From NCBI GenBank assembly GCA_025350305.1, contig JANXYC010000066.1:1-48393 (forward strand): a stretch of DNA of 48,393 bases. The letters are read 5' to 3'. This document shows positions 20,302-35,398 of this stretch, piece after piece (within the stretch, counting starts at the first letter, position 1; each line of letters starts with the position of its first letter). The position numbers and the translations under genes were made by a program. This stretch comes from Cyclobacteriaceae bacterium. GTDB taxonomy: Bacteria; Bacteroidota; Bacteroidia; Cytophagales; Cyclobacteriaceae. Below the pieces are notes generated by a model. The model ran no database searches, had not been told where the DNA came from, and saw only the letters and a list, made by a program, of their open reading frames with translations.

Positions 20302-21687
20302 GTGGCTTTCCGACTCAGGATTTTCACACCTCGGCTGCTAGCCAATTTATACATCGCCATCGATGCGGTGATTGCCAACAAAGTACGTTCGTTACTGACT
20401 GCCCTTGGTATCATTTTCGGAGTGGCAGCCGTCATCGCCATGCTCGCGATCGGCAACGGGGCTCAACAAGAAATTCTCAACCAGATAAAACTCGTTGGTG
20501 TTAACAATATTGTGATAAAACCCATCATTGAGCAGAAGGAAGAAAAACTAAATGAGAATACAACGGGGAAAAAGGACAAGAAAAAATTTTCGCCAGGACT
20601 CACCATACGTGATGTCAACAATATCAAAGCTACGATTCCCGGGTTGACCCGGTGTAGCCCGGAGATCATTCTCAATACCAATGTGATTCGCAATGGCATC
20701 CGGCGGTCGGCTAAACTGGTGGGAGTAGAGCCATCGTATTTTCAAATTTATGATTTTCAACTTGCCGAAGGGCAAATGTTTAGCGAAGAGCAAAGTAAAC
20801 TCGGCGCGCCAGTCTGCATCATCGGCTCCGCGGTAAAGAGCCGGTTCTTCCCTACTGAAAACCCAGTTGGAAAAGGAATAAAAGTTGGACCACACTGGCT
20901 CACCATTGTCGGTGTGATGCGCGAGCGGCTGGTATCCCAGGCCAGCATCAGCAAACTGGGTATCCGGGATTTTAATATGGATGTCTATGCTCCCTTGCAA
21001 AGTGTTTTGATCCGATACGAAAACCGCGACATGATTACCGGTGAGGCGCTCCGGTTGGCGGCGATGAGAAGCCGCGGAAATATTTTCATGAGTGGAAACA
21101 GCAACAGCGATGAGAATGAACTGGATAAAAAAAACTATCACCAGCTTGACCGGCTGGTCATTCAGGTGGAAGAAACCTCCAAGATGCAATCCACTGCAGA
21201 AATTCTTGCACGCCTGCTATCAAGAAAGCACTATGAGGTTGTTGATTTTGAGATTGAGATTCCGGAGTTGCTCCTGAAGCAACAGCAGCGCACCAATGAC
21301 ATCTTTAATTATGTCCTGGGCGCGATAGCGGGAATTTCCCTCCTCGTAGGAGGCATCGGTATCATGAATATTATGCTGGCTTCTGTGTTGGAGCGGATCA
21401 AAGAAATTGGGCTCCGACTTTCGATCGGCGCCCAGAAAAGTGATGTGATCCAGCAGTTTCTTTTTGAGGCCGTGATGATCAGTGTGACCGGTGGTGTTAT
21501 CGGAGTAATCCTGGGTATATCCATGGCCTATATCGTTTCGGTGGTCGCTGATATTCCAACCATTATCAGTTTCGCTTCCATCGTGCTGTCATTTGGCGTA
21601 GCGGCCACGGTAGGATTGATTTTCGGTATCGCGCCCGCCCGCCGGGCTGCCAATCAGGACCCCATTGCATCCCTTCGTTATGAATAA
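20302..21687 (+). CDS. MacB/FtsX-type ABC transporter permease (no fused ATPase)
   Basis: A 461-residue protein starting at a GTG 4 bases after the adaptor stop; no ATG in frame is better placed. One membrane helix at about 30-52 (VRSLLTALGIIFGVAAVIAML) leads into a large periplasmic domain (about 60-330). Three C-terminal helices follow, in the FtsX layout, with GIGIMNIMLASVLERIKEIGLRLSIGA at the cytoplasmic coupling loop. MacB normally carries its ATPase at the N-terminus; here none is fused, nor is one nearby. It may pair with an ATPase encoded elsewhere to export a drug, peptide or lipid. The stop overlaps the next gene by 8 bases. Confidence 0.9.
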   Translation: MAFRLRIFTPRLLANLYIAIDAVIANKVRSLLTALGIIFGVAAVIAMLAIGNGAQQEILNQIKLVGVNNIVIKPIIEQKEEKLNENTTGKKDKKKFSPGLTIRDVNNIKATIPGLTRCSPEIILNTNVIRNGIRRSAKLVGVEPSYFQIYDFQLAEGQMFSEEQSKLGAPVCIIGSAVKSRFFPTENPVGKGIKVGPHWLTIVGVMRERLVSQASISKLGIRDFNMDVYAPLQSVLIRYENRDMITGEALRLAAMRSRGNIFMSGNSNSDENELDKKNYHQLDRLVIQVEETSKMQSTAEILARLLSRKHYEVVDFEIEIPELLLKQQQRTNDIFNYVLGAIAGISLLVGGIGIMNIMLASVLERIKEIGLRLSIGAQKSDVIQQFLFEAVMISVTGGVIGVILGISMAYIVSVVADIPTIISFASIVLSFGVAATVGLIFGIAPARRAANQDPIASLRYE

Positions 21688-23140
21688 AAGAAATGTGCTC
21701 ATGTTTATCCTGTGTGGTTGTGTATTCACCACACAGGCGCAAAATGTTTTTTCCATTGAAGAGGTCATACACCGCGCTCAGTCACAGTCGCCGGCCTTTA
21801 AGCAAACGGAGACGCGGCGCGAGAATAGCTACTGGAGGTATCGTTTTTACCGGACTAATTACAATCCACAGATCCGGATGAATAGCGGAGGTGGTCAACT
21901 CTACTCCAACAGTATTACACCGATACGACAACCGGACGGATCGATCATTTATTTGCCTGTCAACCAGATCAACCCTGGTGTGAATTTCTCCCTTCAACAA
22001 CCCATCCAGTGGACCAATGGAACGATCTCCGTAAACTCAAGTTATAATTACTTTAAGGATTTAATTTCCCAAACCAAACAATGGAATGGCGCCCCCATGT
22101 ACGTTCGGTTGGACCAGCCATTGTTGGCGTACAATCCATACAAATGGGACAAACTTATTCAACCGATCCGCTACGAAGAATCCAAGCGCGATTATGCGGA
22201 GGGTATGGAGCAGATCAGCCGCGATGCCGTCAATTATTTTTTCAGCGTGATGGATGCGCAGGTGAATCTGCAGATTGCGAAATTCAACCTGGCCAATAAC
22301 GATACGATTTATAAGATTGAACAAGGACGTTACAATATCGGTACAACTTCTGAAGACAAACTATTGCAGGTGGAATTGCAGTTGTTGCGCTCCCGGCAGG
22401 ATGTAGGTCAGGCAAATCTCGCGTTGCAAACAGCCAGCCTTGATTTACGAAAGAATATTGGCTTGCGCAACGGAGAGAGCTTTGACCTCGTATTACCGGA
22501 ACAAATTCCTGTATTCAAAGTAGCGGAAGATGAGGCATTGCAATACGCCAAGGAAACCCGGTCGGCCTACGTTGCTTTTGAACGAAGGCGAATGGAAGCA
22601 GAGTCGGCGGTCGCCCAGGTCAGAGGATCGTTATACCAAGTGGGTGTCACAGCGGCCTTTGGGTTAAACAGTGTTGGCGGCACGCTGAATGATTTGTATC
22701 AGAACACATCCAAACAACAGGTGGCGAACGTAGTCTTTAGTGTGCCCGTTGTGGATTGGGGGCGGCGGCGTGCGCAAATGCAAACTGCCTATGCTACCAA
22801 GAGACTGAATGACTACGTTATTGCACAGGATGAAGTAAACTTTGAGCAGGAAATAATAACCCAGGTGCGCCAGTTTGAAATGCTCTACGGCCAGCTTGAG
22901 ATCACAAAAAAATCAGATGAGGTAGCCCTGAAACGTTATAATGTGGCACAAAACAGGTATTTGATTGGTAAGATCGACATCACCAATCTGAATATCGCCC
23001 TCACGGAAAAAGACAACGCCAAGCGTGGGTATATCACGGCCCTCCGATTATTCTGGACAGCGTACTATGATCTGAGACGATTGACTTTGTATGATTTTGC
23101 GGAGAGGAAGTATTTGTACAATCCGAATGTTCCTGACTGA
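21680..23140 (+). CDS. TolC-family outer membrane efflux protein
   Basis: The frame opens at a TTG at 21665, but the ATG at 21680 starts a signal peptide ending TTQAQ and overlaps the permease stop by 8 bases. The 486-residue protein has the TolC duplicated helical layout: N-terminal half EEVIHRAQSQSPAFKQTE and a long helical region with IAKFNLANNDTIYKIEQGRYNIGTTSEDKLL. The second half repeats RYNVAQNRYLIGKIDITNLNIAL. It would form the outer-membrane channel for the upstream adaptor and permease. A dispersed repeat begins right after the stop. Confidence 0.93.
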   Translation: MNKRNVLMFILCGCVFTTQAQNVFSIEEVIHRAQSQSPAFKQTETRRENSYWRYRFYRTNYNPQIRMNSGGGQLYSNSITPIRQPDGSIIYLPVNQINPGVNFSLQQPIQWTNGTISVNSSYNYFKDLISQTKQWNGAPMYVRLDQPLLAYNPYKWDKLIQPIRYEESKRDYAEGMEQISRDAVNYFFSVMDAQVNLQIAKFNLANNDTIYKIEQGRYNIGTTSEDKLLQVELQLLRSRQDVGQANLALQTASLDLRKNIGLRNGESFDLVLPEQIPVFKVAEDEALQYAKETRSAYVAFERRRMEAESAVAQVRGSLYQVGVTAAFGLNSVGGTLNDLYQNTSKQQVANVVFSVPVVDWGRRRAQMQTAYATKRLNDYVIAQDEVNFEQEIITQVRQFEMLYGQLEITKKSDEVALKRYNVAQNRYLIGKIDITNLNIALTEKDNAKRGYITALRLFWTAYYDLRRLTLYDFAERKYLYNPNVPD

Positions 23141-23143
23141 GTA

Positions 23144-23358
23144 GGCCTCAACCCGTCACTTTTCTTTGAAAGAAAATGGTACAAGGAGTTTGAGACCTAA
23201 CCATCGCGGAGAAGGCTTTAATAAAAGAATAACAGGAGATGTGTCGAAGGAAAGCTTCAAAAACTCCTTAGTTCTTCTCCTTCGGAGAAGGTGGGATGAG
23301 GCCAATGAAAAGGTGTTTTTGAAGCTTTCCGAAACCGTGTTATATGGAAGAGACGCCC
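23144..23358 (+). repeat. dispersed intergenic element, copy 2 (~215 bp)
   Basis: It is collinear with 13031-13246, with the same ends (GGCCTCAACCCGTCA at left, GGAAGAGACGCCC at right) and roughly 90 percent identity by eye, in the same orientation. Its right end abuts the debris of an antitoxin gene, as if the element sat where the toxin gene used to be. Together they fill the 338 bases between the TolC gene and the XRE regulator; the remaining ~50 bases show nothing recognisable. Confidence 0.82.
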
Positions 23359-23430
23359 ATACTCCATAGTGATCGTAAACAGAATCCGTTTTTGTGTAGC
23401 CTTTTAAGAACAAATTCTACTGCTTTCATT
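23358..23430 (-). pseudogene. remnant of an antitoxin gene with an internal deletion
   Basis: Read on the minus strand, this starts with the first codons of the antitoxin at 34995-35213 (MKAVEF) and ends with that gene's last ~15 codons and the toxin start codon. The roughly 152 bases between, corresponding to 35044-35195, are missing. The 5' block of 19 bases matches exactly and the 3' block of about 45 differs at about five. The deletion is not a multiple of three, so the frame is broken. It is a relic of a second copy of that toxin-antitoxin operon. Confidence 0.7.
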
Positions 23431-23478
23431 CATTTTTTATCGGTCTTGTTTCTTGCAAACGATACGTAGTGACCTGAA

Positions 23479-23862
23479 TTATCCTTTTTTCAATTCCTGG
23501 AGCTGGCTCTCTAATATCTCTATCTGTTTTGCCTGAAGAGCAATAATTTTATCTTTGGAAGATAAGAATTCATCCATCAGTTTTTGAGGGTCTTGCCAAA
23601 CCATGAAAGCGTTCACTGAGTGAGAGCTGTCGTGGTTTTGGTTGTACTGGATTTGAGTTTGCCCATCACCGGCTACCAACTCTTGTGGTGTTATATCGTA
23701 GAGTGTTGCTAACTTTTCAATTGTTTCTGCTGAAGGAAAATGATTGTCGCTTTCCAGTTTACAATAATTGCCTTGGCTCATATTAAGCTCGTGAGCGATA
23801 TACTCTTGAGAGTAGCCCTTTTCCTGGCGCAGGTCGCAGATTTTTTTGCCAATTTTTAGCAT
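23479..23862 (-). CDS. XRE-family transcriptional regulator
   Basis: A 127-residue protein with an N-terminal helix-turn-helix of the Cro/CI type (about residues 4-62: ICDLRQEKGYSQEYIAHELN, then NYCKLESDNHFPSAETIEKL). A linker and a C-terminal leucine/glutamine-rich helix (about 100-125) probably serve dimerisation. It is divergent from the VKOR-fusion gene, with 111 bases between starts that contain three octamer repeats at a 20-bp period. It most likely controls itself and the peptide operon. Whether it represses or activates, and what signal it reads, cannot be told from sequence. Confidence 0.9.
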   Translation of the reverse strand: MLKIGKKICDLRQEKGYSQEYIAHELNMSQGNYCKLESDNHFPSAETIEKLATLYDITPQELVAGDGQTQIQYNQNHDSSHSVNAFMVWQDPQKLMDEFLSSKDKIIALQAKQIEILESQLQELKKG

Positions 23863-23875
23863 AGATGGAGTGCGT

Positions 23876-23923
23876 TACGAATATTTAATGCAAAATATGA
23901 ATACTATTCATTTAATACGAATA
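23876..23923. promoter_or_regulatory. three direct octamer repeats at 20-bp period, putative regulator operators
   Basis: TA[C/T]GAATA occurs at 23876-23883, 23896-23903 and 23916-23923. The spacing is exactly 20 bases, close to two DNA turns, placing the sites on one face. The middle site is part of the palindrome ATGAATACTATTCAT (23897-23911). The array lies between the XRE regulator and the first gene of the peptide operon, so it is the obvious operator candidate. Confidence 0.6.
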
Positions 23924-23973
23924 GTGAGGTGTGAATCTGATGCCCACATTTACATGAATAAGCCGCCAGACCC

Positions 23974-25581
23974 ATGGAACAAACCGTTTCTGATTTTTTA
24001 GCGCTTCTTAAAATACCGATATCTCCAAAATATATTGAAAAGCTTATTCAGGCTCACCCCGATTTTCCATCGCTCCTAAGTATCTCAGACATCTTTCTGC
24101 GGCTCGGGATAAACCACCAGGTGACACGGATAGAAAAGGAACGGCTGCCCGAACTGCCATTCCCATATCTTATTCCCCTTGACAAAGGCAGGGGGGACAT
24201 TATTGTTATTAAAAATGGAGATAGCCTAAAAAAATATGAAAATCAATTGGGAGAATGGAGCGGTGTGGTAGTACTGGCTGAAACCACAAAGACTACCACC
24301 GATAAGGAAAACAATGATCTATATTACCAAGAAAGTAAGATAAGGAAATACGCTATTAGTATCATCCTGGCACTCGCTGCCCTTTTACTGCTCTCATTTA
24401 TCAACTCGTTTTCATGGGTCAACGCTTTTTTGCTGGTCATGTCCATTGCCGGATTGGCTGTAGGATATTTGCTTTTCGCCAAAGAGTTAGGGATAAGTTA
24501 TGCGGCTGTGGATGCATTCTGTAATGCCGGAAAAAATACCAACTGCGATAAAGTACTAACCTCCGAGGTCACCTTGTTGGGGGTAAGCTTTTCCGATGCA
24601 GTACTCACCTATTTTCTTTTTCAAACCATTACACTTGGCTTTTCCTCATTTCTTCCAGGCCAGGCGCAACCCATTTTATTCCCACTGGCTACCCTGAGTC
24701 TGCTCACCCTGCCTGTTGTTATATTTTCTTTTTATTACCAGTATGTTAAGGCAAAGACCTGGTGTCGGTTGTGCCTCATTGTAGATGCGATACTTATACT
24801 TCAGACATATCTGTTTGGCTACTCTATTTATAATGATGCATTTATGTGGCACGGTATAAGCGGCGTTTTGTTGATTGTGTTGGCATTGGTTGTGCTTGCT
24901 ATTTACTCCAGCGTTTTGGCAATAAAGGCCAGTATAGAGCGTTATGAAAAACTAAACCAGCAAGGCGGGGTGGGCAACGGTGTAAAGCATACCGCCTCGG
25001 TGTTCGCTTCTTTTTTGACCAGGCAAAAGAAAATAGACACGCAGCCGTTTGAAACGGAAATGCTGTTGGGCAACTCCGATGTACCTATAAAAATAATTAT
25101 GGCCAGCAACCTGTATTGCAACCCCTGCAAGAAAAAACATGAGGTGGCAGATCAACTGGTGGCAATGTACCCTGATAAAGTGAATATAACCTTGCGCTTT
25201 ATACGAAGCGGGAATGATGTAGTATATAAAACAGAATCCTTGCGACACCTATTAGGCTATTGGCATCAATTCATTCATGGAAAGGATGATGAATCCCAAA
25301 ATACGTTGAAACTTATGAACAATTGGTTTACCCTGTGGGATTTGCAAAAATTTATGAAGATATACCCAACAAAGCCTGATGATGCCGAAGTAGAGAAATT
25401 GGAAGCACAGCATTATACATGGATAGATGAAGTAGGTATAACACATACACCCACGTTTTTTATCAACGGTTATGAGCTTCCTAAAGAATATATCATAGAA
25501 GACTTGCTGGCAATGACACCTGCGCTTGCCGACAGCATTAACAAAACAGCGGAGAGCGAAATGACATTACAACATGTATAA
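23974..25581 (+). CDS. C39-like / vitamin K epoxide reductase / DsbA-like thioredoxin fusion
   Basis: A 535-residue three-part membrane protein. Residues 1-105 resemble a C39 peptidase domain but lack the catalytic Cys and His, so it may only bind leaders. Residues 125-320 form a VKOR domain with several helices, a loop pair Cys183/Cys191, and the quinone-side CxxC at Cys264/Cys267 (WCRLC). Residues 355-530 are a periplasmic thioredoxin-fold domain with CNPC (Cys382/Cys385) and a cis-Pro loop HTPTFFING. Such fusions move electrons from substrate thiols to quinones and so create disulfides. The two cysteine-rich peptides encoded next are the likely substrates. The ATG at 23974 follows the operator-like repeats. 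Confidence 0.88.
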   Translation: MEQTVSDFLALLKIPISPKYIEKLIQAHPDFPSLLSISDIFLRLGINHQVTRIEKERLPELPFPYLIPLDKGRGDIIVIKNGDSLKKYENQLGEWSGVVVLAETTKTTTDKENNDLYYQESKIRKYAISIILALAALLLLSFINSFSWVNAFLLVMSIAGLAVGYLLFAKELGISYAAVDAFCNAGKNTNCDKVLTSEVTLLGVSFSDAVLTYFLFQTITLGFSSFLPGQAQPILFPLATLSLLTLPVVIFSFYYQYVKAKTWCRLCLIVDAILILQTYLFGYSIYNDAFMWHGISGVLLIVLALVVLAIYSSVLAIKASIERYEKLNQQGGVGNGVKHTASVFASFLTRQKKIDTQPFETEMLLGNSDVPIKIIMASNLYCNPCKKKHEVADQLVAMYPDKVNITLRFIRSGNDVVYKTESLRHLLGYWHQFIHGKDDESQNTLKLMNNWFTLWDLQKFMKIYPTKPDDAEVEKLEAQHYTWIDEVGITHTPTFFINGYELPKEYIIEDLLAMTPALADSINKTAESEMTLQHV

Positions 25582-25583
25582 GA

Positions 25584-25681
25584 TATTGTTTGGCCAAAAC
25601 AAGGGGTTTTAACAGAACTTGTACCCTGCCGGAAGGTGAAACAGGTTGATTGTTTTAATCAAAATCAATTAAATTTAAAAA
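25584..25681 (+). promoter_or_regulatory. duplicated leader region of precursor A, with conserved hairpin
   Basis: This 98-base leader is repeated before precursor B at 25921-26018 with few changes. Both contain TATTGTTTGG at the left end. A small stem follows (CCTG 25625-25628 with CAGG 25642-25645, inner GCC with GGT), and an AAATCAATTAAATTTAAA stretch comes just before the start codon. The stem is kept in copy B, where the inner pair is GCC with GGC. It may control translation of the peptides. Confidence 0.45.
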
Positions 25682-25840
25682 ATGAAAACTGAAAAAATGA
25701 GTTTTAAGAACATCAAGGATGTTCTTAGTCGTGATGAGATGAAAAAAATTCTCGCTGGTTCTGCAGGAGACGCTTGTGGTATCTGCTTTGGTCCACAGGG
25801 CCTAGGAACTTGCGCAAACAATTGGAATAACATTTGCTAA
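25682..25840 (+). CDS. cysteine-rich precursor peptide A (double-glycine-type leader)
   Basis: A 52-residue peptide. Residues 1-26 are a C39-type leader: Leu15, Ser16, Glu19, Met20, Ile23, Ala25 and Gly26 sit in the canonical -12, -11, -8, -7, -4, -2 and -1 places, so cutting after Ala-Gly is predicted. The 26-residue core has Cys at core positions 6, 9, 18 and 26 and many Gly and Asn. The leader is almost identical to that of precursor B, while the core is unrelated apart from cysteine spacing. The neighbouring C39 exporter would trim and export it, and the VKOR fusion could form two disulfides. Product activity is unknown; a bacteriocin or signal is plausible. Confidence 0.85.
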   Translation: MKTEKMSFKNIKDVLSRDEMKKILAGSAGDACGICFGPQGLGTCANNWNNIC

Positions 25841-25896
25841 TGTTTGCTTTATCCTGGACAAACTTGCTCTAGTTAAAATAATTTATTCCGTTTTTT

Positions 25897-25929
25897 TTGT
25901 CGGACAACAATGATAAAAAATATTGTTTG
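25897..25929 (+). promoter_or_regulatory. possible Bacteroidota-type promoter before precursor B
   Basis: TTTTTTTTG ending at 25899 and TATTGTTTG at 25921-25929 are about 21 bases apart, close to the -33 TTG / -7 TAnnTTTG spacing of this phylum, though the -7 box has one extra base. Copy A has the same right box without a TTG at the matching distance, so this is tentative. Confidence 0.3.
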
Positions 25930-26018
25930 GCCAAAACAGGGGTTTTAACAGAACTTGTACCTGCCGAAAGGCGAAACAGGTTGAGGTTTTTAATCAAAAT
26001 CAATTAAATTTAAAAAAA
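25921..26018 (+). promoter_or_regulatory. duplicated leader region of precursor B, with conserved hairpin
   Basis: The second copy of the leader region, exactly 337 bases downstream of the first. The stem is ACCTG (25959-25963) with CAGGT (25977-25981), with an inner GCC-GAAA-GGC hairpin, a stable tetraloop form. Changes relative to copy A keep the pairing, which argues for a functional RNA element, though two copies are weak evidence. Confidence 0.45.
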
Positions 26019-26228
26019 ATGAAAACAGAAAAAATGAGCTTTAAGAATATCAAGGATGTTCTTAGCAGAGACGAAATGAAAAGCATTATGGCAGGAAGTG
26101 GTGGTGGTGGCGCAACATGTAGCGGCTGTGTTGCTGGTGGAATTTCATATACATGTGGCACGGATACAGTAGGAGGTAGAACAATTTGTTCTTGTCCCGC
26201 AGCTAATTCAACCACTAACAATTGTTGA
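26019..26228 (+). CDS. cysteine-rich precursor peptide B (double-glycine-type leader)
   Basis: A 69-residue peptide starting at the ATG at 26019; an upstream in-frame start at 25923 lies in duplicated leader DNA and is rejected. Leader residues 1-26 differ from precursor A at only two places. The 43-residue core begins with a Ser-Gly-rich stretch and has Cys at core positions 8, 11, 20, 32, 34 and 43. The first three share the Cys-x2-Cys-x8-Cys spacing of core A, and both cores end in Cys. Several Ser and Thr could accept sugars. It belongs to the same maturation and export pathway. The final activity is unknown. Confidence 0.88.
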   Translation: MKTEKMSFKNIKDVLSRDEMKSIMAGSGGGGATCSGCVAGGISYTCGTDTVGGRTICSCPAANSTTNNC

Positions 26229-26368
26229 AGGTATAAGTGCAAACTTTATAATTTCACACTATACATACGTTACTTAGTATTCATCTAACGGGGCTTAAAA
26301 GTATACCCTGTATGCTTTATAGTGTATCATGGCCACCACTACTTGGGCGTGTTAGATTTTTGCTAGCG

Positions 26369-26427
26369 GGTAGTACTCTTTTGTGATTGTTAATTTCCAG
26401 ACATCTATTTGGAGTACTACCTTTTTT
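26369..26427 (+). terminator. intrinsic terminator after the precursor pair
   Basis: GGTAGTACTC (26369-26378) pairs perfectly with GAGTACTACC (26412-26421), followed at once by six T. The loop is 33 bases. It would separate abundant precursor transcripts from the downstream maturation genes, letting the peptides be made in excess. Confidence 0.75.
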
Positions 26428-26477
26428 ATGAAAAACGTCGTTGAATATGGTAATTTGTTGAGCTTTTTGAACCATCT

Positions 26478-27920
26478 ATGAATAAATATCTTAAGGTCAT
26501 CATTCAGTCTCTCGCATTATCAATTTTGCTTAGCTGCTCGAAAAATGGAGGTGATAATATAGTTAATGTATCCGTACAAGGTCAAACTGATGAGGCATTG
26601 GGAATTAAAATCAGTAAGATAGACATGCTTAATTCGGAGTCAATCTCCATTGCCGAAGCAGGGTTAGATTCTTTAGGTAAATGTTCCTTAAAATTTACTA
26701 TTTCCAAACCCACATTGGCAACCCTTGAAATAGGACATACGATTAACGTGATTTACCTTGAACCTGGCCAGGATTTAAATGTTTCTTTTTCAAAGGACTC
26801 TGATATCACAACTTATTCAGGTAAAGGTTCAGAAGCCAATAATTATTTATCTCAAGTATCTTTAATACGGACAAAAATTGAAGAAAACAGCGGTAGAAAT
26901 ATATATGGATTAAATCAGAAAGAATTTCTCAATCGACTTGATACATTGGAAAAATCACTGAATAAATTTCACCAAGATTTTATTGATAGCGTTCACCTAC
27001 CACTTAATGTAAGTAATTTACTGGAAAAGGGTAATATGATGATATTATTGGTAGTTAAGCAGGCTTATGGCTGGAACTATGGCTCAAGGCATAATCATAA
27101 AATTCCGGAAGAACTAGACGTGGCTAATAAAATTCCAATTGATTCAATGCTGCTTGATGTTGGCATGCGTGAATATGCTTCGGCATTACACATGAATATG
27201 TATCTTAAATTTTATATTCCTCTTCAAACAAAAAAAATATCTGAGGAAAACGAAATCGATGGGATGAGAATCCCGCTAATGGTAGAGAAGAAAATTTACG
27301 ATAGTAAATATCCATCATTTATGGAGGAATTTCTGCTAGCAAAAAATGTAGACATGTTATTAACTTCTTTAGGTATTACACCAACAATAGATACGGTTTA
27401 CAAAAATTTCAGAAATAAATACTCTACTTCTTCTTACTTATCTCCATTAAGAAACCGGTATGATACATGGCTAGCCATTTCACCAGGCAAGACAGCGCCA
27501 GATGTTAAAGGTTTGACAATGAATGGTGCATGGCTTTCACTTAACGACCTTAAAGGGAAGATTGTTTATATTGATGTGTGGGCAACTTGGTGTGGACCTT
27601 GCAGAGATGAGCTTCCATATGCTAAGAAACTTCAAAAAAAATTTGAGAACAACAATAGAATCGTCTTTTTGTATGTGTCAGTGGATAGGGATCAAGAAGT
27701 TTGGAAGAAAATGCTTCAGCAAGATCCTGATTTTAAAGGGACCCATATTATAGAAGTAGTGGGAAAGGGCATACCGATTCGGAATTCATATCACATTGCA
27801 GGAATACCAAGATACATTTTGGTTAATGAAAATGGATTAATTGTCAATGTGGATGCCCCACGACCATCCTCTAAGGAAATTGAAACGGAAATAGATAAGC
27901 TCTTGGCCCCTAAAAATTAG
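26478..27920 (+). CDS. TlpA/ResA-like thioredoxin-domain lipoprotein
   Basis: A 480-residue lipoprotein precursor with lipobox LLSC (Cys20). Residues 25-125 form a beta-rich domain like those preceding TlpA domains in Bacteroidota, 130-330 are helical, and 335-475 are a thioredoxin fold with WCGPC (Cys372/Cys375). The cis-Pro loop reads AGIPRYILV. TlpA-type proteins act in the periplasm, usually reducing or exchanging disulfides. Beside a VKOR-type oxidase and cysteine-rich peptides, it may correct wrongly paired disulfides. It follows the precursor terminator by about 50 bases. The DNA is visibly AT-richer than the flanking housekeeping genes. Confidence 0.88.
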   Translation: MNKYLKVIIQSLALSILLSCSKNGGDNIVNVSVQGQTDEALGIKISKIDMLNSESISIAEAGLDSLGKCSLKFTISKPTLATLEIGHTINVIYLEPGQDLNVSFSKDSDITTYSGKGSEANNYLSQVSLIRTKIEENSGRNIYGLNQKEFLNRLDTLEKSLNKFHQDFIDSVHLPLNVSNLLEKGNMMILLVVKQAYGWNYGSRHNHKIPEELDVANKIPIDSMLLDVGMREYASALHMNMYLKFYIPLQTKKISEENEIDGMRIPLMVEKKIYDSKYPSFMEEFLLAKNVDMLLTSLGITPTIDTVYKNFRNKYSTSSYLSPLRNRYDTWLAISPGKTAPDVKGLTMNGAWLSLNDLKGKIVYIDVWATWCGPCRDELPYAKKLQKKFENNNRIVFLYVSVDRDQEVWKKMLQQDPDFKGTHIIEVVGKGIPIRNSYHIAGIPRYILVNENGLIVNVDAPRPSSKEIETEIDKLLAPKN

Positions 27921-27988
27921 GTATAAATTTAAAACTTTTATAATTGATCTTCCTAATCAGACGTCCGTTGATCTCTTTCCTTTCATAA

Positions 27989-29635
27989 GTGAGAATAGTC
28001 CAGTCTTTTTGGAGTTGTAATCAAACCAATCTTTTGGAATTTAAAGCAGGCTGGATCAGGCCGGAATTCAATCTGATGAGCTTGGCCTTAAGTTGTCTTC
28101 AGGTAAAGAAATTCTATCCCCAGGTTACATTGTATTCTGATGATGTGGCTGCGAAAATGCTGATTGATACATTGAAGCTTCCCTACGACAATCTTATTTG
28201 TGAATTAGATGTTCTAAACAAATACCATCCGCAACTTTGGGCTTTACCAAAAATATACACGTATGGTAAGCAGGAGACTCCTTTTTTGCACGTCGATGGA
28301 GACGTTTTCATCTGGAAGGAATTTGACGAAATACTGCTTCAAGGTCAACTCATTGCTCAAAATGAAGAAGCCGCCACAGATTATTACGAAGCAATCATTC
28401 AATCTTTGGAAAAGGAGCTATCCTATTTTCCCCCCGAAATAATTTCAGAAAGGGCATCAAAGGAATCACTACATGCATTTAATGCAGGCATTATGGGCGG
28501 TCGTGATGTGGATTTTTTTAAAACCTTCTCAGAAAAGGCTTTTCAGTTTATTGAACGAAATAAAAATGACTTTTCTAGAATAAATGTTTCATCGTTTAAT
28601 ATTTTCTTTGAGCAATACTTGTTTTATTGCTTAGCGAAGAATGCGGGTAAACAAGTAAGCGTTTTAATCAACGAAGTGATTTTTGATAACAGGTACAAAG
28701 ACCTGGGGAATTTTATAGATGTGCCGCATATTAAAAAATATCTGCACTTAATCGGCAATTATAAAAGAAACAGACAGACTTGTGAACAACTAGCCAACAG
28801 GCTCAGACAGGATTACCCCGAACATTATTACCGCATTATCGCACTTTTCAAAAGCAACAAAGTTCCTTTGCTTAGGGACTATTATTGGTTTGAAGCTGAT
28901 TTCTCTGAGCAAAACCTTTTGGATAAGCATAATCTCTTACAGGAAACTTTCTTCAACAAGAAGCTTGCGTTGAACGATGAAACAGCAATAAGTAACCCCG
29001 TTTTAAATGAATCTGTTTATTTTAGAGGTTTGCTTCTTAAGCCCCTTATCGACTCTGCCAGGACAAATGAACTGATCGGGAATTTTCCGAAAAATGCAGA
29101 CTTGTTTTTGGAGGATATAAATCAATTTGAGAATGCTCTATTGGGAATTGTTAAAATGAAATTTTCCGTAATATCCAAGAACTATTTGCTTGCCAGAGAT
29201 ACTGGTCGCGCAAAATTCTCGGAATATATTTTTGGCAACCCTCAAACGACGTATGAAAGATCCATTGTTGCGGACAGATTAACTGAAAGAATCAAAAGTC
29301 AGTTTGATTGGACGCCATTAGATGAGCTTGATGGTTCGTTGCAAATAACTATTGACAAACTGGGAGACCAAGAGCCTTCAATAGTTTATACCCTGGTGAC
29401 CCCTGAGTGCGATCAGATAGGCTACTCCCTGGATAGTATTGATGAATTAGATTGTCTTCTATTGGAAACACTCTGCGAGCCTAAGACTATCAGAGAATTA
29501 TTTAAACAAATAGAGTATGCATTTGATCCTGAAGATTTAGCAAACTCAAAGTCCGAGTTTGAGAAATTAATCTTTGGCAGAATAAAAAAAGGTTTTCAGA
29601 ATAAGAGTATTGAGGCCGTCATGGATACATATTAG
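27989..29635 (+). CDS. DUF6734-like protein with GT-A glycosyltransferase features and winged-helix-like tail
   Basis: A 548-residue cytoplasmic protein with a GTG start. Residues 1-260 resemble the GT-A fold. A strand ends in PFLHVDGDVFIW, whose Asp103-Gly-Asp105 fits the metal-binding DxD motif, and HAFNAGIMGG (residues 162-171) resembles the FNAG acceptor-side motif of GT8-like enzymes. The last ~70 residues (LDSIDELDCLLLETL, then TIRELFKQIEYAF) look like a winged-helix or PqqD-like leader-binding domain. This suggests a peptide-modifying glycosyltransferase. It lies 3 bases before the C39 exporter. The family number is from memory and the activity is inferred. Confidence 0.68.
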   Translation: MRIVQSFWSCNQTNLLEFKAGWIRPEFNLMSLALSCLQVKKFYPQVTLYSDDVAAKMLIDTLKLPYDNLICELDVLNKYHPQLWALPKIYTYGKQETPFLHVDGDVFIWKEFDEILLQGQLIAQNEEAATDYYEAIIQSLEKELSYFPPEIISERASKESLHAFNAGIMGGRDVDFFKTFSEKAFQFIERNKNDFSRINVSSFNIFFEQYLFYCLAKNAGKQVSVLINEVIFDNRYKDLGNFIDVPHIKKYLHLIGNYKRNRQTCEQLANRLRQDYPEHYYRIIALFKSNKVPLLRDYYWFEADFSEQNLLDKHNLLQETFFNKKLALNDETAISNPVLNESVYFRGLLLKPLIDSARTNELIGNFPKNADLFLEDINQFENALLGIVKMKFSVISKNYLLARDTGRAKFSEYIFGNPQTTYERSIVADRLTERIKSQFDWTPLDELDGSLQITIDKLGDQEPSIVYTLVTPECDQIGYSLDSIDELDCLLLETLCEPKTIRELFKQIEYAFDPEDLANSKSEFEKLIFGRIKKGFQNKSIEAVMDTY

Positions 29636-29638
29636 AAC

Positions 29639-31831
29639 ATGAGTAAATTTCAATTTTACGGGCAAGCAGATGCAATGGATTGCGGCCCAGCCTGCTTACG
29701 AATGATATTTAAGTATTATGGAAAGCAAATAAGTTTAGATAGCCTTAGAAGGGAATCTCAGACTAGCAAAAGCGGTGTTTCACTACTGGGTTTGTCCGAA
29801 GCTGCCGAGAAATATGGTTTTCCTACCATCAGTGCTAAAGTTACTTTTGAGCAATTGCTATCCGATGCCCCGCTTCCTTGTATCCTGCATTGGGACCAGT
29901 ACCATTTTGTAGTACTTACGCCCGCTGCAAATAAAAAGAGATTGACTATTGCAGACCCCGCAAAAGACTTGATCACTTATACCAAAGCAGAATTTTTAAA
30001 GTATTGGGTCTCTATCAATGCAAATGGTGAAAGCAAGGGCATCGTCCTGCTTTTAACACCGCGCGGGGCGTTTTATCAGCAAGAAGATGAGAATGATAAA
30101 GGGATTAGCTGGGGCTTGCTGAGTAGGTATGCATTCAATTATAAAGCACAGATAGTTCAATTATTTATTGGCTTGCTGGTGGGCAGTTTACTTCAATTGA
30201 TTTTTCCCTACCTGGCCCAAAGTATTGTTGATACGGGTATCAGCACTCAAAACCTGCCCTTTATCCAAATCATACTCCTTGCCCAATTTGCTCTTTTTTT
30301 CGGTCAGACTATTGTAGAATTTATTCGCGGCCGGATTTTACTATTTGTAAGTATACATATCAACCTCTCTATCTTATCCGATTTCTGGATCAAGCTAATG
30401 AGGTTGCCTTTAAATTTCTTCGACACCAAACAAACCGGTGATATCCTACAACGGATCCAAGATCACCATCGGATAGAAAACTTCATTACAGGCACAGCAT
30501 TGCAAACGTTGTTTTCAATTTTCAATTTACTGGTGTTTTCCGTTGTGCTGTTAACCTACAATACAACGGTGTTTGCCATTTTCTTTTTCGGGAGTTCTCT
30601 TTATTTACTTTGGATTAGGGTATTTTTAAAATATCGGAGAAAGCTTGATTTCAAGCGTTTTGCCGTGGCCTCAAAAGAGAGTTCGGCCACCATGCAATTG
30701 ATCCATGGGATGCATGAAATTAAGCTGAACAACGCTGAGCATTTAAAACGTTGGGAGTGGGAAAGCCTGCAGGCATCGCTTTTCAAATTAAATTTTAAAT
30801 CTCTTTCTGTGAGTCAATATCAACAAGGAGGTGCATTTTTTATCAATCAAGGCAAAAATATTTTCATCACGTATTTGGTTGCGAAATCAGTTTTGGAAGG
30901 GCAATTGACGTTAGGCGCAATGTTGGCCATTCAATATATTATTGGTCAGTTAAATAGTCCGGTGGAACACCTTATTTCTTTTAGCCAACAAGCCCAAGAC
31001 GCAAAAATATCTTTGGAAAGGTTAAACGAAATTCACTTGTTGGAAGAAGAGGAACCCAAAGATCGCACGTTTTCCAATGTAATTTCCGATAACCATAGTA
31101 TCCGATTAGAGAATCTGATTTTCGCCTATCCTGGTGCCGGCAACTTACCTATCCTATCTAACATAAGCACAGAATTTCCAGGCGGAAAAGTAACAGCCAT
31201 TGTGGGCATGAGCGGAAGCGGGAAAACGACCATTCTAAAACTTATTCAAAGATTTTATGAAAGCTATGGTGGGGAAATAAAAATTGGGGAAAGTAATTTA
31301 AAGTACCTAAGCCCTTATTATTGGCGGAGCATATCCGGCAGCGTGATGCAGGACGGTTATATCTTTAGCGATTCCATTGAGAAAAATATTGCTGTGGGTG
31401 ATGAAAGCATTGACTATCCAAAACTGATACAAGCATGCAAAGTAGCTAGCATATTAAGTTTTATAGAATTTATACCATTAGGCTTTAATACAAAAATTGG
31501 AGCCGAGGGCAATGGGATAAGCACGGGGCAAAAGCAACGGATATTAATCGCGCGCGCGGTTTATAAGAACCCCAAATTTATTCTGTTTGATGAAGCCACC
31601 AACGCATTGGATGCTAACAATGAAAAGACCATAATGGAAAATCTGCAAGAATTTTTCAAAGAAAGAACAGTAATCATAGTAGCCCATCGGCTAAGCACTG
31701 TAAAAAATGCGGATAAAATTGTTGTGCTTGAGAACGGTAAAATAATTGAAGAAGGCCATCATAAAGAACTCACTCAGAGAAAGGGAAAGTATTATGAGTT
31801 GGTGAAAAACCAATTGGAACTCGGAACCTAA
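29639..31831 (+). CDS. C39-peptidase-containing ABC exporter
   Basis: A 730-residue inner-membrane protein. The N-terminal C39 peptidase domain (1-140) has the catalytic Cys15 (MDCGPACL), His89 (YHFVVL) and Asp106 (ADPAKD). A membrane domain of about six helices spans 160-440. The ATPase domain has Walker A GMSGSGKT (523-530), a signature in the divergent form ISTGQKQR, Walker B FILFDEATNALD, and VAHRLSTV. Transporters of this type cut double-glycine leaders while exporting the core. The two precursors at 25.7-26.2 kb have matching leaders. It is 3 bases after the glycosyltransferase-like gene and 6 before the adaptor. Confidence 0.96.
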   Translation: MSKFQFYGQADAMDCGPACLRMIFKYYGKQISLDSLRRESQTSKSGVSLLGLSEAAEKYGFPTISAKVTFEQLLSDAPLPCILHWDQYHFVVLTPAANKKRLTIADPAKDLITYTKAEFLKYWVSINANGESKGIVLLLTPRGAFYQQEDENDKGISWGLLSRYAFNYKAQIVQLFIGLLVGSLLQLIFPYLAQSIVDTGISTQNLPFIQIILLAQFALFFGQTIVEFIRGRILLFVSIHINLSILSDFWIKLMRLPLNFFDTKQTGDILQRIQDHHRIENFITGTALQTLFSIFNLLVFSVVLLTYNTTVFAIFFFGSSLYLLWIRVFLKYRRKLDFKRFAVASKESSATMQLIHGMHEIKLNNAEHLKRWEWESLQASLFKLNFKSLSVSQYQQGGAFFINQGKNIFITYLVAKSVLEGQLTLGAMLAIQYIIGQLNSPVEHLISFSQQAQDAKISLERLNEIHLLEEEEPKDRTFSNVISDNHSIRLENLIFAYPGAGNLPILSNISTEFPGGKVTAIVGMSGSGKTTILKLIQRFYESYGGEIKIGESNLKYLSPYYWRSISGSVMQDGYIFSDSIEKNIAVGDESIDYPKLIQACKVASILSFIEFIPLGFNTKIGAEGNGISTGQKQRILIARAVYKNPKFILFDEATNALDANNEKTIMENLQEFFKERTVIIVAHRLSTVKNADKIVVLENGKIIEEGHHKELTQRKGKYYELVKNQLELGT

Positions 31832-31837
31832 AACACA

Positions 31838-33166
31838 ATGTCAACAAAGATTTCAAATAACGGTACAACGACTGATATGCCTGAACAAATGAGGGACGTT
31901 ACTTCTCTGCGTTCAGGGATGATGCAAGAAATTGTGTCCAATAGACCTGGGTTTCTGATTCGTTGGGGGAATTTGTTTTTCTTATTGGTGGTAATCCTGA
32001 TTGGCATCGCTTGCTGGTTCATCAAGTACCCTGACACGGTGCAAGCCTCTGCAAAACTGACTTCAATAAATGCCCCCAAACCTGTTATAAGTTTAATTGG
32101 CGGCAAACTAATAAAACTTTGCATTGCCGAAAATGAATTTGCAAATAAAGGACAGATTTTGGGCTATATCGAATCAACGGCCAATCATGGAGAAGTTTTA
32201 ATGCTCGCATCAAATCTTGACACAATTCAAATACTGCTCAATCACGAAAAAGCAGATCAAATTAAAGAGTATTTCTCTGGTGCGACAACCCAGTTAGGCG
32301 AATTGCAAACAGCGTATCAGACATTTTCACAAACCTTTCATTCTTTTGAGAATTATTTAACAGACGGGTTTTATCTAAAAAAAAGCGCAATGTTATTGAA
32401 CGATAAAAGTAACTTAATAAAGCTGTACAAGAATTTAAATGAGCAAAGGAAATTACAAGAACAAGATCTTGCACTTATTCAAAAGACATTTGAAGCAAAC
32501 GAGGCACTCAAAAATAATAAAGTTATTTCCGATTTTGACTATCGCATCGAACTGAGTAAGCTCATAAACAAAAAATTGACATTGCCACAAATCAGGTCAG
32601 CCATTATAAGCAACGAAAGCCAACAGACCGAAAAGGAAAAGGAGATAATCGAGTTGGAAAATACCATTAACCAACAAAAGTCTATTTTTCAGCAATCAAT
32701 TAACACTTTTAAAAGCCAGATTGATGAGTGGAGAAAAAAGTATACTCTCATAGCGCCAATTAGTGGGAAAGTAGCGTTTGCATCATTCGTGCAAGAAAAC
32801 CAGCAACTACAAGCAAATCAAACAATTTGCTTTATCAATCCTGAAAATAGCCAATACTTTGCAGAAATTGTAATCCCTCAAGGTAACTTTGGTAAAGTAG
32901 CTGTTGGCCAACGAGTGTTGTTGAAATTTCAATCCTATCCTTTTCAAGAGTATGGCTCCGTCATTGGTAAAATTGAATTTATCAGTCATATTCCAAGCGA
33001 GAATGGTTACTTAGCAAAAGTTGTTTTTACAAATGGGCTTATGACAACGTATAATAAAAAAATCCAGTACCGTGATGGTTTATTGGCAAATGCAGAAATT
33101 GTTACTAAGGATATGAGATTACTAGAGCGGTTTTACTATAATATTGTGCGGCAAATAAAAAATTAG
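31838..33166 (+). CDS. HlyD-family adaptor of the peptide exporter
   Basis: A 442-residue protein with a cytoplasmic N-terminus, one membrane helix (about 44-63) and a lipoyl/beta half (KPVISLIGGKLIKLCIAENEFA). A coiled-coil hairpin runs from about 130 to 300, the second lipoyl half is TLIAPISGKVAFASFVQENQ, and a C-terminal beta-barrel follows. Such adaptors join C39 ABC exporters to an outer-membrane TolC channel. No TolC gene is in this operon; the one ending at 23140 belongs to another operon but could be shared. It starts 6 bases after the exporter stop. Confidence 0.92.
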   Translation: MSTKISNNGTTTDMPEQMRDVTSLRSGMMQEIVSNRPGFLIRWGNLFFLLVVILIGIACWFIKYPDTVQASAKLTSINAPKPVISLIGGKLIKLCIAENEFANKGQILGYIESTANHGEVLMLASNLDTIQILLNHEKADQIKEYFSGATTQLGELQTAYQTFSQTFHSFENYLTDGFYLKKSAMLLNDKSNLIKLYKNLNEQRKLQEQDLALIQKTFEANEALKNNKVISDFDYRIELSKLINKKLTLPQIRSAIISNESQQTEKEKEIIELENTINQQKSIFQQSINTFKSQIDEWRKKYTLIAPISGKVAFASFVQENQQLQANQTICFINPENSQYFAEIVIPQGNFGKVAVGQRVLLKFQSYPFQEYGSVIGKIEFISHIPSENGYLAKVVFTNGLMTTYNKKIQYRDGLLANAEIVTKDMRLLERFYYNIVRQIKN

Positions 33167-33291
33167 TTTTCATCTTTAACTATATTGATGATGAGTTGCA
33201 AAATGGACTCCCGATTAAGTGAAGATGACAGTGAAGGGAGATTGAGTAGAATGCATTGGCCAATCCCAGGTTGAAATTTGATTTGATCAAG

Positions 33292-33315
33292 ATATTGAGT
33301 AATTTTACTCAATAT
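33292..33315. promoter_or_regulatory. perfect 11-bp inverted repeat before the DUF4143 gene
   Basis: ATATTGAGTAA (33292-33302) and TTACTCAATAT (33305-33315) flank two bases, and another GAGTAA follows at 33319. It lies 16 bases before the start codon, where a bound protein would block transcription, so it is an operator candidate. Confidence 0.5.
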
Positions 33316-33331
33316 TCTGAGTAAATTGTAA

Positions 33332-34519
33332 ATGGCCTATCAACGCCCTCAATTACAGCAGGTTATAACCAGATTAAAAGAGCCTAGAAGGTTTATCCAG
33401 GTGCTCTATGGCCCGCGGCAGGTTGGGAAAACGACCCTGATCACGCAGGCTTTAGGAAACCTGGAAATACCCAACCATTTTGCCTCTGCTGATCTGGTGA
33501 CCAACGGCCAGGTATGGATTGAACAACAATGGGAAGTGGCCCGTACTCTTGCTGCTCAATCCAAGGCAAAGGAATTTATTCTGGTGATCGATGAGGTCCA
33601 GAAAATTGAAAACTGGAGCGAAGCAGTAAAGCGCTTATGGGATAGAGACTCCCTTTCAAAAGGACCGATCAAAGTGGTGCTGCTGGGCTCCTCCCGGCTG
33701 CTGTTACAACAAGGACTTACCGAATCGCTGGCAGGACGGTTTGAGACCATCTACCTGGGACATTGGTCGTTTTCCGAAATGCGGGATGCATTCGGTTTTA
33801 CACCGGAGCAATTTGTTTGGTTTGGCGGATATCCGGGCGCTGCCTCCCTGATCCACGAGGAGGAACGATGGAAGCGTTATGTAGTGGATTCCCTGATTGA
33901 GACCAGTATCACTCGTGACATCCTGCTGTTAACACGGGTAGATAAACCTGCCTTGATGCGCAGGCTTTTTGAATTGGGCTGTGCCGCTTCGGGACAGATT
34001 CTGTCATTCACCAAAATCATGGGACAACTGCAGGACGTTGGCAACACTGTCACGCTCGCGCATTACCTTGAATTATTGGAAACTGCAGGTTTACTGGCAG
34101 GCCTGGAGAAATTTTCAGGAAAGCAACACCGCCAGCGAGCCAGCAGCCCGAAGTTTCAGGTGTATAACATGGCGTTGCTAAGTGCACAACAAGCGGCCAC
34201 CTTTGAAGAAACGAAAAGTGACCCTGCGCTGTGGGGCCGGTGGGTAGAGAGCGCCATCGGTACGCACCTGGTGAATGAATCGCTGGCGCATTGTTTTAAC
34301 CTGTATTATTGGCGCGAGCGCAGCGATGAAGTTGATTTTGTAATGGAAAAAGGAGGGAAGGTGATTGCCCTGGAGGTGAAGACCAACCCCGCCAGGCAAA
34401 CAAAAGGAATGGCCGCGTTTACAAAACAATGGCGGCCTCATAAAATCCTGATGATTGGAAAAGAGGGTTTGTCATGGCAAGACTTTTTAACTACCCGTGT
34501 CAATGATCTTTTCCAATGA
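33332..34519 (+). CDS. AAA ATPase with DUF4143 domain
   Basis: A 395-residue cytoplasmic protein. Walker A GPRQVGKT (27-34) and Walker B ILVIDEVQK (about 83-91) belong to the AAA_14 domain, followed by the DUF4143 region (about 170-370). That ends in a nuclease-like strand pair (EVDFVMEKGGKVIALEVKT) resembling the PD-(D/E)XK fold. Such proteins are common, often singletons near mobile or toxin genes, and their function is unsettled. Base composition is like the core genome rather than the AT-rich peptide island. A palindrome sits just upstream. Confidence 0.9.
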   Translation: MAYQRPQLQQVITRLKEPRRFIQVLYGPRQVGKTTLITQALGNLEIPNHFASADLVTNGQVWIEQQWEVARTLAAQSKAKEFILVIDEVQKIENWSEAVKRLWDRDSLSKGPIKVVLLGSSRLLLQQGLTESLAGRFETIYLGHWSFSEMRDAFGFTPEQFVWFGGYPGAASLIHEEERWKRYVVDSLIETSITRDILLLTRVDKPALMRRLFELGCAASGQILSFTKIMGQLQDVGNTVTLAHYLELLETAGLLAGLEKFSGKQHRQRASSPKFQVYNMALLSAQQAATFEETKSDPALWGRWVESAIGTHLVNESLAHCFNLYYWRERSDEVDFVMEKGGKVIALEVKTNPARQTKGMAAFTKQWRPHKILMIGKEGLSWQDFLTTRVNDLFQ

Positions 34520-34668: not shown

Positions 34669-34992
34669 TTAAACGATCAGCTTTTTAAAAGTGTTCCTGA
34701 CCTGATTTTGTGTGGCCTTATCCAGTTGACCTATTCTTAAATCAACAAGCTCTTTCTCCAGGGAAGCTATTTTGTGAATGCGTATTACCGAAGGTAATCT
34801 CAAACCAAATTTTTCCCAATGTTTTAACTTGATGTCGAATGAGGTGTTGTATAGTTTGCTGGTCAAGCGGCATACGATAATGTCGCCATCGTTGGAATCG
34901 AAAATAACTAACGCTGGACGCTTTTTGGAGGAAAGTTCATCTGTAAAAGGAAATTTCAGAAGCACAATGTCACCAAATTTGAGTTCCTCCAT
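34669..34992 (-). CDS. PemK/MazF-family toxin
   Basis: A 107-residue protein starting at the ATG complementary to 34990-34992; two alternative codons upstream would overlap the antitoxin. The fold signature is clear: FGDIVLLKFPFTDELSSKKRPALVI at the N-terminus and a C-terminal LDKATQNQVRNTFKKL. In this family it is usually a ribosome-independent mRNA endoribonuclease. It begins 2 bases after the antitoxin stop, the normal antitoxin-first order. A deleted second copy of the antitoxin remains near 23.4 kb. Confidence 0.9.
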   Translation of the reverse strand: MEELKFGDIVLLKFPFTDELSSKKRPALVIFDSNDGDIIVCRLTSKLYNTSFDIKLKHWEKFGLRLPSVIRIHKIASLEKELVDLRIGQLDKATQNQVRNTFKKLIV

Positions 34993-34994
34993 AC

Positions 34995-35213
34995 TCAATA
35001 GTGATCGTAAACAGAATCTGTTTTAGCGTAACCTTTTAAGAACTGCTCTTTGGTAAGATGTTGAAAATCATCTTTTTCTTTTTGATCGGGCTCGTCCATT
35101 AGCACAATCACTCGTACATTCTTATTTTTTGACGTGGTAACTTGCTTATGCAGCTTCTTGGGAATCTGTATCCTGTTGTTTTTAAGCTTTGTCTTAAATT
35201 CTACTGCTTTCAT
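34995..35213 (-). CDS. antitoxin of the PemK/MazF-type pair
   Basis: A 72-residue basic-to-acidic protein (start at the ATG at 35211-35213; an in-frame start 6 codons earlier is possible). Residues 1-40 contain FKTKLKNNRIQIPKKL, suggestive of a swapped-hairpin AbrB-like DNA-binding part. The rest is charged, as expected for a flexible toxin-binding tail ending DSVYDHY. Location directly before the toxin makes the role likely. Such antitoxins usually repress their own promoter. Confidence 0.8.
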   Translation of the reverse strand: MKAVEFKTKLKNNRIQIPKKLHKQVTTSKNKNVRVIVLMDEPDQKEKDDFQHLTKEQFLKGYAKTDSVYDHY

Positions 35214-35398
35214 TGAAACGAATTTAACCAAAGATACAAATTATAGCGCGTAAGATTTGACTTTTATCCTTGTTTTCGGTTGGGGGTGCTTGGGCGAGAA
35301 TCTCCTTGAGATGCTGTGTTTTTTATCCGAGTCCTTTTTCGTCAATTAGTTATTTGCTAAAAGCCGCGCTTTAACACGAATGAAGCGCAAGGCATTTT

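Follow-up and report, generated by a model that had tools for sequence, protein, structure and literature searches.

A candidate pathway for disulfide-rich, possibly glycosylated exported peptides in a Cyclobacteriaceae bacterium

What does a compact block of peptide, redox, and export genes in a Cyclobacteriaceae bacterium make, and what does the 548-residue protein encoded within it contribute? The block lies at positions 23479-33166 of contig JANXYC010000066.1 (assembly GCA_025350305.1); the window that we analyzed is this entire contig of 48,393 nucleotides, which belongs to a genome of 4.2 Mb that is 91.8% complete. The original prediction, made from the letters alone, had read the block as a disulfide-rich, possibly glycosylated exported peptide system. 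Analyses of open reading frames and Pfam domains recovered its whole gene set, with every coordinate as it had given them and with gaps of 3 and 6 bases between the last three genes (those for the 548-residue protein, the ATP-binding cassette [ABC] exporter, and the HlyD adaptor). We conclude that the products of the locus are very probably small exported peptides with disulfide links; to judge from the enzyme encoded beside the exporter, they are possibly glycosylated. The features of the locus are as follows.

23479..23862, minus strand: XRE-family regulator, possibly local, divergent from the fusion gene (Pfam HTH_19, 6e-11)
23974..25581, plus strand: fusion protein with C39-like (residues 1-118), VKOR (~152-279), and thioredoxin (~360-506) parts (Pfam VKOR, 5.5e-11; Thioredoxin_4, 5.5e-6)
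25625..25758, plus strand: direct duplication, copy 1, upstream region plus leader (repeat search, alignment)
25682..25840, plus strand: precursor peptide 1, 52 residues, 26-residue leader ending in AG, core with 4 cysteines
25960..26095, plus strand: direct duplication, copy 2, upstream region plus leader (repeat search, alignment)
26019..26228, plus strand: precursor peptide 2, 69 residues, from an internal ATG of a 101-residue open reading frame (25923-26228), same leader, core with 6 cysteines
26478..27920, plus strand: TlpA-type thiol-disulfide lipoprotein (Pfam Thioredoxin_8, 1.5e-16; Redoxin, 5.9e-16; lipobox LLSC and CGPC in the sequence)
27989..29635, plus strand: 548-residue protein, whole gene
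27989..28855, plus strand: its DUF6734 domain (residues 1-289), a GT8-like GT-A glycosyltransferase (GT) domain by PF20508 and fold comparison
28856..29362, plus strand: its middle part (residues 290-458), mostly helical in a model of partly low confidence, with no Pfam match
29363..29632, plus strand: its C-terminal winged-helix region (residues 459-548), PqqD-like and presumed to bind leaders (hhalign)
29639..31831, plus strand: peptidase-containing ABC exporter (Pfam C39, 2.2e-34; ABC_membrane, 1.6e-28; ABC_tran, 2.2e-23)
31838..33166, plus strand: HlyD-type adaptor (Pfam HlyD_3, 1.5e-12)

The leaders of both precursors begin MKTEKMSFKNIKDVLSRDEMK and finish in AG, and about 110 bases 5' of them were duplicated along with them. 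Between the two copies, 28 codons contain 10 synonymous and 3 nonsynonymous differences; the first 27 codons differ at 16 bases, 11 of them in third position. Since third-position differences predominate, the leader protein appears to have been kept while its DNA drifted, and by this pattern we take both precursors to be genuine genes. Both leaders have Ile at -4, Met at -7, and Leu at -12, which we take to be the positions important for C39 substrates. A leader search of the window's genome returned, beyond the two precursors, only matches with E values of 0.18 or worse within longer frames, and precursor 2 scored 11.7 bits against the NCBIfam model leader_Chryseo (NF047798), under its curated cut-off of 23.5.

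Related stretches (labeled L) were used to ask how regularly such leaders accompany the enzyme, whose N-terminal domain belongs to the family DUF6734. Those relatives of the enzyme that carry a name come from Flavobacterium, Mucilaginibacter, and a bin labeled "Bacteroidetes bacterium." We compared 48 stretches encoding a long DUF6734 protein with 23 encoding a short one (~300 residues, without the C-terminal tail), and a leader hidden Markov model (HMM) was run at an E-value cut-off of 0.01 on the ATG-started frames of these 71 stretches (at most 22 kb each). The HMM, the seeds of which were drawn from part of the 48 long-form stretches, matched in 28/48 long-form but 0/23 short-form stretches; in 36 stretches obtained after it had been built, it matched in 10 of 26 long-form and 0 of 10 short-form stretches (Fisher P = 0.035). 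The 49 distinct leader peptides include 47 with cysteine, 44 of which have an even number and 33 exactly six, although these peptide and stretch counts include related sequences that are not independent (L047 3600-3376, which has no GG or AG, was excluded from the cysteine count). Fully paired disulfides would yield such even counts.

The fusion protein contains just six cysteines, located at positions 183, 191, and 264/267 in the VKOR part and at positions 382/385 in the thioredoxin CxxC motif. Taken together with the even cysteine counts, these six residues, exactly those expected, support well the disulfide-rich product that had been proposed. All three predicted parts of the fusion are present, but the C39-like part is noncatalytic: scanned alone, it scored 15.1 bits against Pfam C39, under the cut-off of 22, and since it has no cysteine, it cannot be a cysteine peptidase. 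It may instead hold the leader, and the fusion as a whole is presumed to be a periplasmic disulfide maker. The peptidase of the system is the exporter's own C39 domain, whose Cys15 lies in the usual context by eye.

A structure model of the 548-residue protein was built from an 80-row alignment (an earlier 9-row model was poor, with a predicted local distance difference test [pLDDT] score of 54), and it revealed a GT8-type GT-A fold, so that the non-GT fold named in advance as grounds for rejecting the prediction did not appear. In a fold search covering residues 1-289, the top rows were GT8 enzymes; glycogenin and LgtC rows aligned to DUF6734 with 9-13% identity. GT8 enzymes share the motifs DxD, NxG, and HxxGxxK, the first and last of which supply metal- and nucleotide-binding residues. 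DUF6734 has the DxD (D103, D105) together with H253 and K259 of HxxGxxK: W84, K88, H101, D103, D105, N165, E208, Q209, and H253 are invariant in 80 of 80 rows, and K259 (79/80), G167 (78/80), and G170 (72/80) are nearly so. A Pfam scan of the 548-residue protein up to an E value of 1 gave DUF6734 and no PF00535 match. Sequence-profile searches of the PDB were uninformative for the GT part, where the best hit, a methane monooxygenase regulatory protein, had an E value of 0.001. Environmental viral contigs (IMG/VR; L103-L199) encode stand-alone DUF6734-like enzymes of 230-370 residues (114 candidate stretches, of which 80 were kept, plus 19), and the 71 that were aligned, out of 73 nonredundant relatives, retain the same invariant residues.

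Galactofuranose was considered as the sugar and rejected, as no UDP-galactopyranose mutase was found in the other long- and short-form stretches of the 48 and 23 and none scored over the cut-off in the window's genome. Such a gene does adjoin DUF6734 in two stretches, between it and the exporter genes (L054 1735-2859, TIGR00031, 2e-115; L055 8190-9338, 8e-127), and the sequences of this clade thus carry a local hint of a galactofuranose donor.

The tail of the long form offers a possible means of finding the peptides. Residues 466-544 of the model run strand-strand-helix-helix-helix-helix-strand, in a block with pLDDT values of 77-98; PqqD has the order strand-strand-helix-helix-helix. When aligned with hhalign, the tail (39 sequences, residues 459-548) matched a profile of 29 PqqD sequences across 58 columns at 94.7%, a value that rose to 95.2% when the columns were set differently. 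The 10 control tiles starting before residue 451 of the same protein did not exceed 3.9%, and none of 33 decoy tiles taken from the exporter, HlyD, and fusion proteins exceeded 1.0%. MarR matched at 2.5-2.7%, and an AsnC-type helix-turn-helix (HTH) profile at 88-89%; the PqqD and AsnC profiles match each other at 52-72%. The modeled tail is therefore a winged-helix domain. In other clades, the PqqD and AsnC values were 15% and 4% (10 sequences) and 90% and 18% (17 sequences), and smaller-set PqqD comparisons gave 39-45% (the window's set alone and a joint set) and 1% (the L043-L048 set). No Pfam PqqD match was found in the 548-residue protein up to an E value of 1. PqqD is thus the best of the three profiles overall, though not in the window's own clade, and these comparisons make leader binding by the tail likely.

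The company kept by the two forms differs beyond the leaders. Exporter matches of at least 290 bits occur in 34/48 long-form and 4/23 short-form stretches (the former including two split over two frames, L043 and L242, and the latter two cut by the stretch end, L256 and L261), and VKOR-fusion matches occur in 23/48 and 1/23, respectively. LanC-like matches show the opposite pattern (0/48 and 7/23). The 48 long forms include L034, whose contig ends just past DUF6734, and L041, in which DUF6734 and the exporter are broken; left out were L057 (long form at a contig end), L069 (a broken copy), second copies within a stretch, and the weak or partial G796, G631, and G600. A link between the 548-residue protein and leaders is present in its genomic company and possibly also in its own winged-helix tail.

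Short DUF6734 genes lie next to or at most 2 kb from genes for LanC-like proteins of 570-680 residues in L051 (7133-8932), L052 (7059-8993), and L056 (9738-11762), with further pairs in L256 (6612-8459), L257 (1281-3329), L258 (6733-8694), and L263 (4992-6707). The L051 locus also has an aromatic hydroxylase/aminotransferase fusion, and L052 and L056 have other GT genes. By gene content, these loci look like another uncharacterized pathway. Other short forms neighbor GT9, UDPGT-like, GT2-like, glycogen-synthase-like, trehalose-synthase, or transketolase genes. In L064 (8320-15374), two divergent DUF6734 genes in tandem adjoin a core protein of an extracellular contractile injection system (PF13699, 4e-30), a possible contractile-injection cluster.

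What the exported products do is suggested by larger proteins that share the leaders. In four stretches from Flavobacterium or Flavobacteriaceae, the leader IKFSDIxGMLxxDxMREIIGG heads toxin-like proteins of 396-460 residues.

L038, 10656-12008: leader-headed toxin-like protein
L040, 10660-12042: leader-headed toxin-like protein
L041, 10664-11854: leader-headed toxin-like protein
L042, 10657-12009: leader-headed toxin-like protein

These proteins have a common N-terminal part of ~200 residues, rich in Gly, Ser, Asn, and Thr, and exchangeable C-terminal parts of two kinds. L038 and L040 share one kind, with a weak lipase hint in L040 (E value of 0.06) and none in L038; L041 and L042 have a phage-type lysozyme (PF00959, 5e-7 and 4.5e-12). 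A small lipoprotein-like family (53-56% alike) occurs in L035, L038, and L040, where it lies 3' of the L038/L040-kind protein, and the small proteins that follow those of L041 and L042 are of two other kinds without detectable likeness. This arrangement suggests a polymorphic toxin/immunity layout. In L043-L048, leader genes lie among genes for DUF4221 proteins, perhaps immunity partners; BLAST places one or more of these proteins in every one of the six stretches, and Pfam confirms seven. These stretches hold several leader-peptide genes and DUF4221 proteins each, with short exporter-like fragments among them in L043, L046, and L048, an arrangement resembling a series of toxin-immunity cassettes that surround a single exporter. 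Because of the leader-headed toxins and the DUF4221 company, an antibacterial role appears likeliest.

From these features we infer the following order of steps. The ribosome would make a precursor with a 26-residue leader of the double-glycine type, and in the cytoplasm the 548-residue enzyme would grip this leader through its C-terminal winged-helix domain, which would resemble the recognition element (RRE) of enzymes acting on ribosomally synthesized and posttranslationally modified peptides (RiPPs). Its GT8-like N-terminal domain would then move a sugar from a nucleotide sugar to a core side chain, with the help of a metal ion, as GT8 enzymes do. Cleavage after AG would fall to the exporter's C39 domain, and the ABC/HlyD pair would send out the core. 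In the periplasm, the VKOR-thioredoxin fusion would close the disulfides, perhaps with the TlpA lipoprotein as a proofreading partner, so that the two peptides could carry two and three disulfides; the product would most likely act on other bacteria. We lean toward this complete pathway of leader-guided GT8-type glycosylation, C39 export, disulfide closure, and antibacterial peptides as somewhat the more probable account of the locus.

Several results weigh against this pathway, above all against its sugar. Precursor genes were found in relatives that keep the exporter, as the original prediction required, but not in every stretch: 20 of the 48 long-form stretches have no leader at an E value of 0.01, and while a few of these show one by eye, the others show none. 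The glycine of HxxGxxK is kept in just 52 of 80 rows, and the cut-site motifs of characterized exporters, in the parts of PMC12457901 that were available, are GG, GA, and GS and not AG. Moreover, among 196 genomes of the family (the genome draws of different searches overlap), 34 have a VKOR-fusion match and 15 have DUF6734; long forms occur in 9 of these 15, and 8 of the 9 are among the 34. Since 23 of the 34 VKOR-fusion genomes have no DUF6734 match, the enzyme is an optional addition: it usually accompanies the export system, which often occurs without it. The window's genome itself has a second VKOR-fusion/leader/exporter locus without DUF6734 (L326, contig C136, 239-4661), with the exporter split over three frames. 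We also compared 21 VKOR-fusion loci whose stretches lack DUF6734, namely, L326 and 20 loci of genomes with no DUF6734 match; 16 of the 21 encode a total of 26 leader/Cys-rich peptides, 23 of them with even cysteines. One such core, in L336, shares 92% identity across 38 residues with a core of L047, which comes from a DUF6734-bearing genome of the same genus, and the matched parts of further core pairs, one from a locus with the enzyme and one from a locus lacking it, are 38-80% alike. Since the L336 genome has no DUF6734 match at all, no sugar can be needed for its core, and these enzyme-free loci with their related cores form the chief argument that the sugar is not obligatory. Nor do leaders differ throughout according to whether the enzyme is present, since in the L043-L048 clade those without it (L335, L336) are nearly the same. 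The subtype [FL]xx[IL]xxx[LM]xxx[EDQ]M, common to the window and Mucilaginibacter loci, occurs in 11/57 peptides from loci with the enzyme and 0/26 from loci without it, although this pattern was picked after the leaders had been viewed and some of the 57, which were required to have GG/AG, the hydrophobic places, and at least 2 cysteines, look spurious (L044 with a 33-residue leader, the second of L237, and L255).

A rival reading takes the products to be ordinary, unmodified, disulfide-rich C39-exported bacteriocins resembling bacteroidetocins, with DUF6734 glycosylating another target, such as a surface glycan or receptor through which the producer is protected. This explanation is favored by the loci without DUF6734, which have the exporter, the VKOR fusion, and even-Cys peptides whose cores are related or nearly identical to those of loci with it, and by the association of short forms with LanC-like proteins and other sugar-related genes. 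We nevertheless consider it unlikely, given that the long form has a winged-helix tail and keeps leader company in 28/48 stretches versus 0/23 for the tail-less form, that only 3 bases separate enzyme and exporter genes in the window, and that L039 has a long DUF6734 with a leader gene directly 5' but no exporter match in the stretch (L059 likewise by eye). Leader-guided glycosylation would also lose its guide if the winged helix were DNA binding or structural and the enzyme found the core unaided. The tail could simply be a winged helix of a general kind, since AsnC also matches it, exceeds PqqD in the window's clade (58% versus 41%; 12 sequences), and is joined by an HTH-type regulator (2ia0; E value of 1.8e-4 over 37 columns) as the best PDB sequence-profile match. 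However, the whole alignment favors PqqD, and over more columns (58-60 versus 50), the model has the strand and helix order of PqqD, and we know of no precedent for a DNA-binding tail on a GT; we therefore regard a tail that does not read leaders as quite unlikely. That the peptides are signals rather than toxins, as the adjoining XRE regulator might suggest, seems improbable in view of their variable Cys-rich cores behind constant leaders, the leader genes among DUF4221 proteins, and the occurrence, in Flavobacterium-type loci, of toxin-type domains preceded by the same leader.

Glycocins are defined by their sugar, not by their enzyme, and the known glycocin enzymes are of the GT2 family (SunS type). 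The locus encodes precursors with leaders for a C39 exporter but no SunS-type GT2 enzyme. In the available parts of PMC12457901, the glycocins sublancin, glycocin F, thermoglycocin, and orniglycocin likewise have leaders cut by a C39 exporter, disulfide-bonded cores (the bonds being predicted here), and a dedicated GT, whereas the present locus has both a DUF6734/GT8-like enzyme that ends in a winged helix and a VKOR fusion. Since the enzyme is of another kind and we only infer glycosylation, we do not file the locus as a glycocin; by its gene content, it would work like a glycocin pathway with another kind of enzyme. Class IIf bacteroidetocins, as described in the accessible portion of PMC6671954, are also Cys-containing peptides of Bacteroidota with a leader, a C39-type ABC exporter, and a thiol oxidoreductase gene, the counterparts of which here, by gene type, are the VKOR/thioredoxin fusion and TlpA. 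Their leaders have 15-16 residues, and their loci encode a protein that spans the membrane five times, in contrast to the 26-residue leaders, VKOR-thioredoxin fusion, and DUF6734 of the present locus.

A leader-binding domain fused to a GT is the same idea as in the RRE-GT fusions of RRE-Finder (PMC7470986), for which the 2025 successor (PMC12710340) names PF00535. In the parts of these two papers that were available, no characterized RRE-GT fusion appears, nor does DUF6734 or PF20508 occur in the available main text of the latter. The sections covered of a Bacteroidales RiPP survey describe S-glycosyltransferase-like genes with radical SAM and LanC genes, and the covered text of a polymorphic-toxin paper contains neither "double-glycine" nor "VKOR." A search of open-license literature found nothing on DUF6734, which, despite sharing the fold, DxD, NxG, and the His and Lys of HxxGxxK with glycogenin and LgtC, is a separate Pfam family without a known function.

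If the favored pathway is true, it would supply a function for this unannotated family, a second enzyme fold (GT8) for RiPP peptide glycosylation, and a genome-mining handle for a large and varied set of Bacteroidota Cys-rich peptides. The Flavobacterium arrangement further raises the question of whether small bacteriocins and large polymorphic toxins use one leader-guided route of modification and export. We put forward, tentatively and with rather less confidence, that the long DUF6734 protein is a new RiPP enzyme, a GT8-type GT equipped with its own leader-reading domain, and the founder of a class of exported peptides across Bacteroidota that are both glycosylated and rich in disulfides; the same enzyme-leader-exporter module would handle the lipase-like and lysozyme polymorphic toxins of Flavobacterium, and sugar tagging would be an export code shared by peptide and protein weapons.

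At the edges of the locus, XRE-like genes are also divergent upstream of the VKOR fusion in L232 and L246 (30-31% identity, 41-44 bits), but since the window's XRE gene has no match among the 36 relatives' stretches compared, its membership of the locus is uncertain. A 55-nucleotide direct repeat (91%) at 23357-23411 and 34989-35043, 11.6 kb apart, brackets the entire cluster; the right copy lies at the end of a small minus-strand gene (34995-35231) that adjoins a PemK/MazF-like toxin gene (34669-34998; PF02452, 1e-15), and the left copy is a remnant. The genome has just these two long copies. The bracketing repeat suggests that the block moved or arose through recombination. No Rfam family reached its gathering score within 23000-33400, and promoter-like sites (35 versus 31.4 ± 4.7) and terminator-like sites (5 versus 7.2 ± 2.6) were no more common than in shuffled sequences. 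Just upstream, at 18969-23140, lie consecutive HlyD-like, MacB/FtsX-like, and TolC-like genes. A TolC-like gene also lies immediately 5' of the VKOR fusion in L037, and a common outer-membrane exit is therefore possible.

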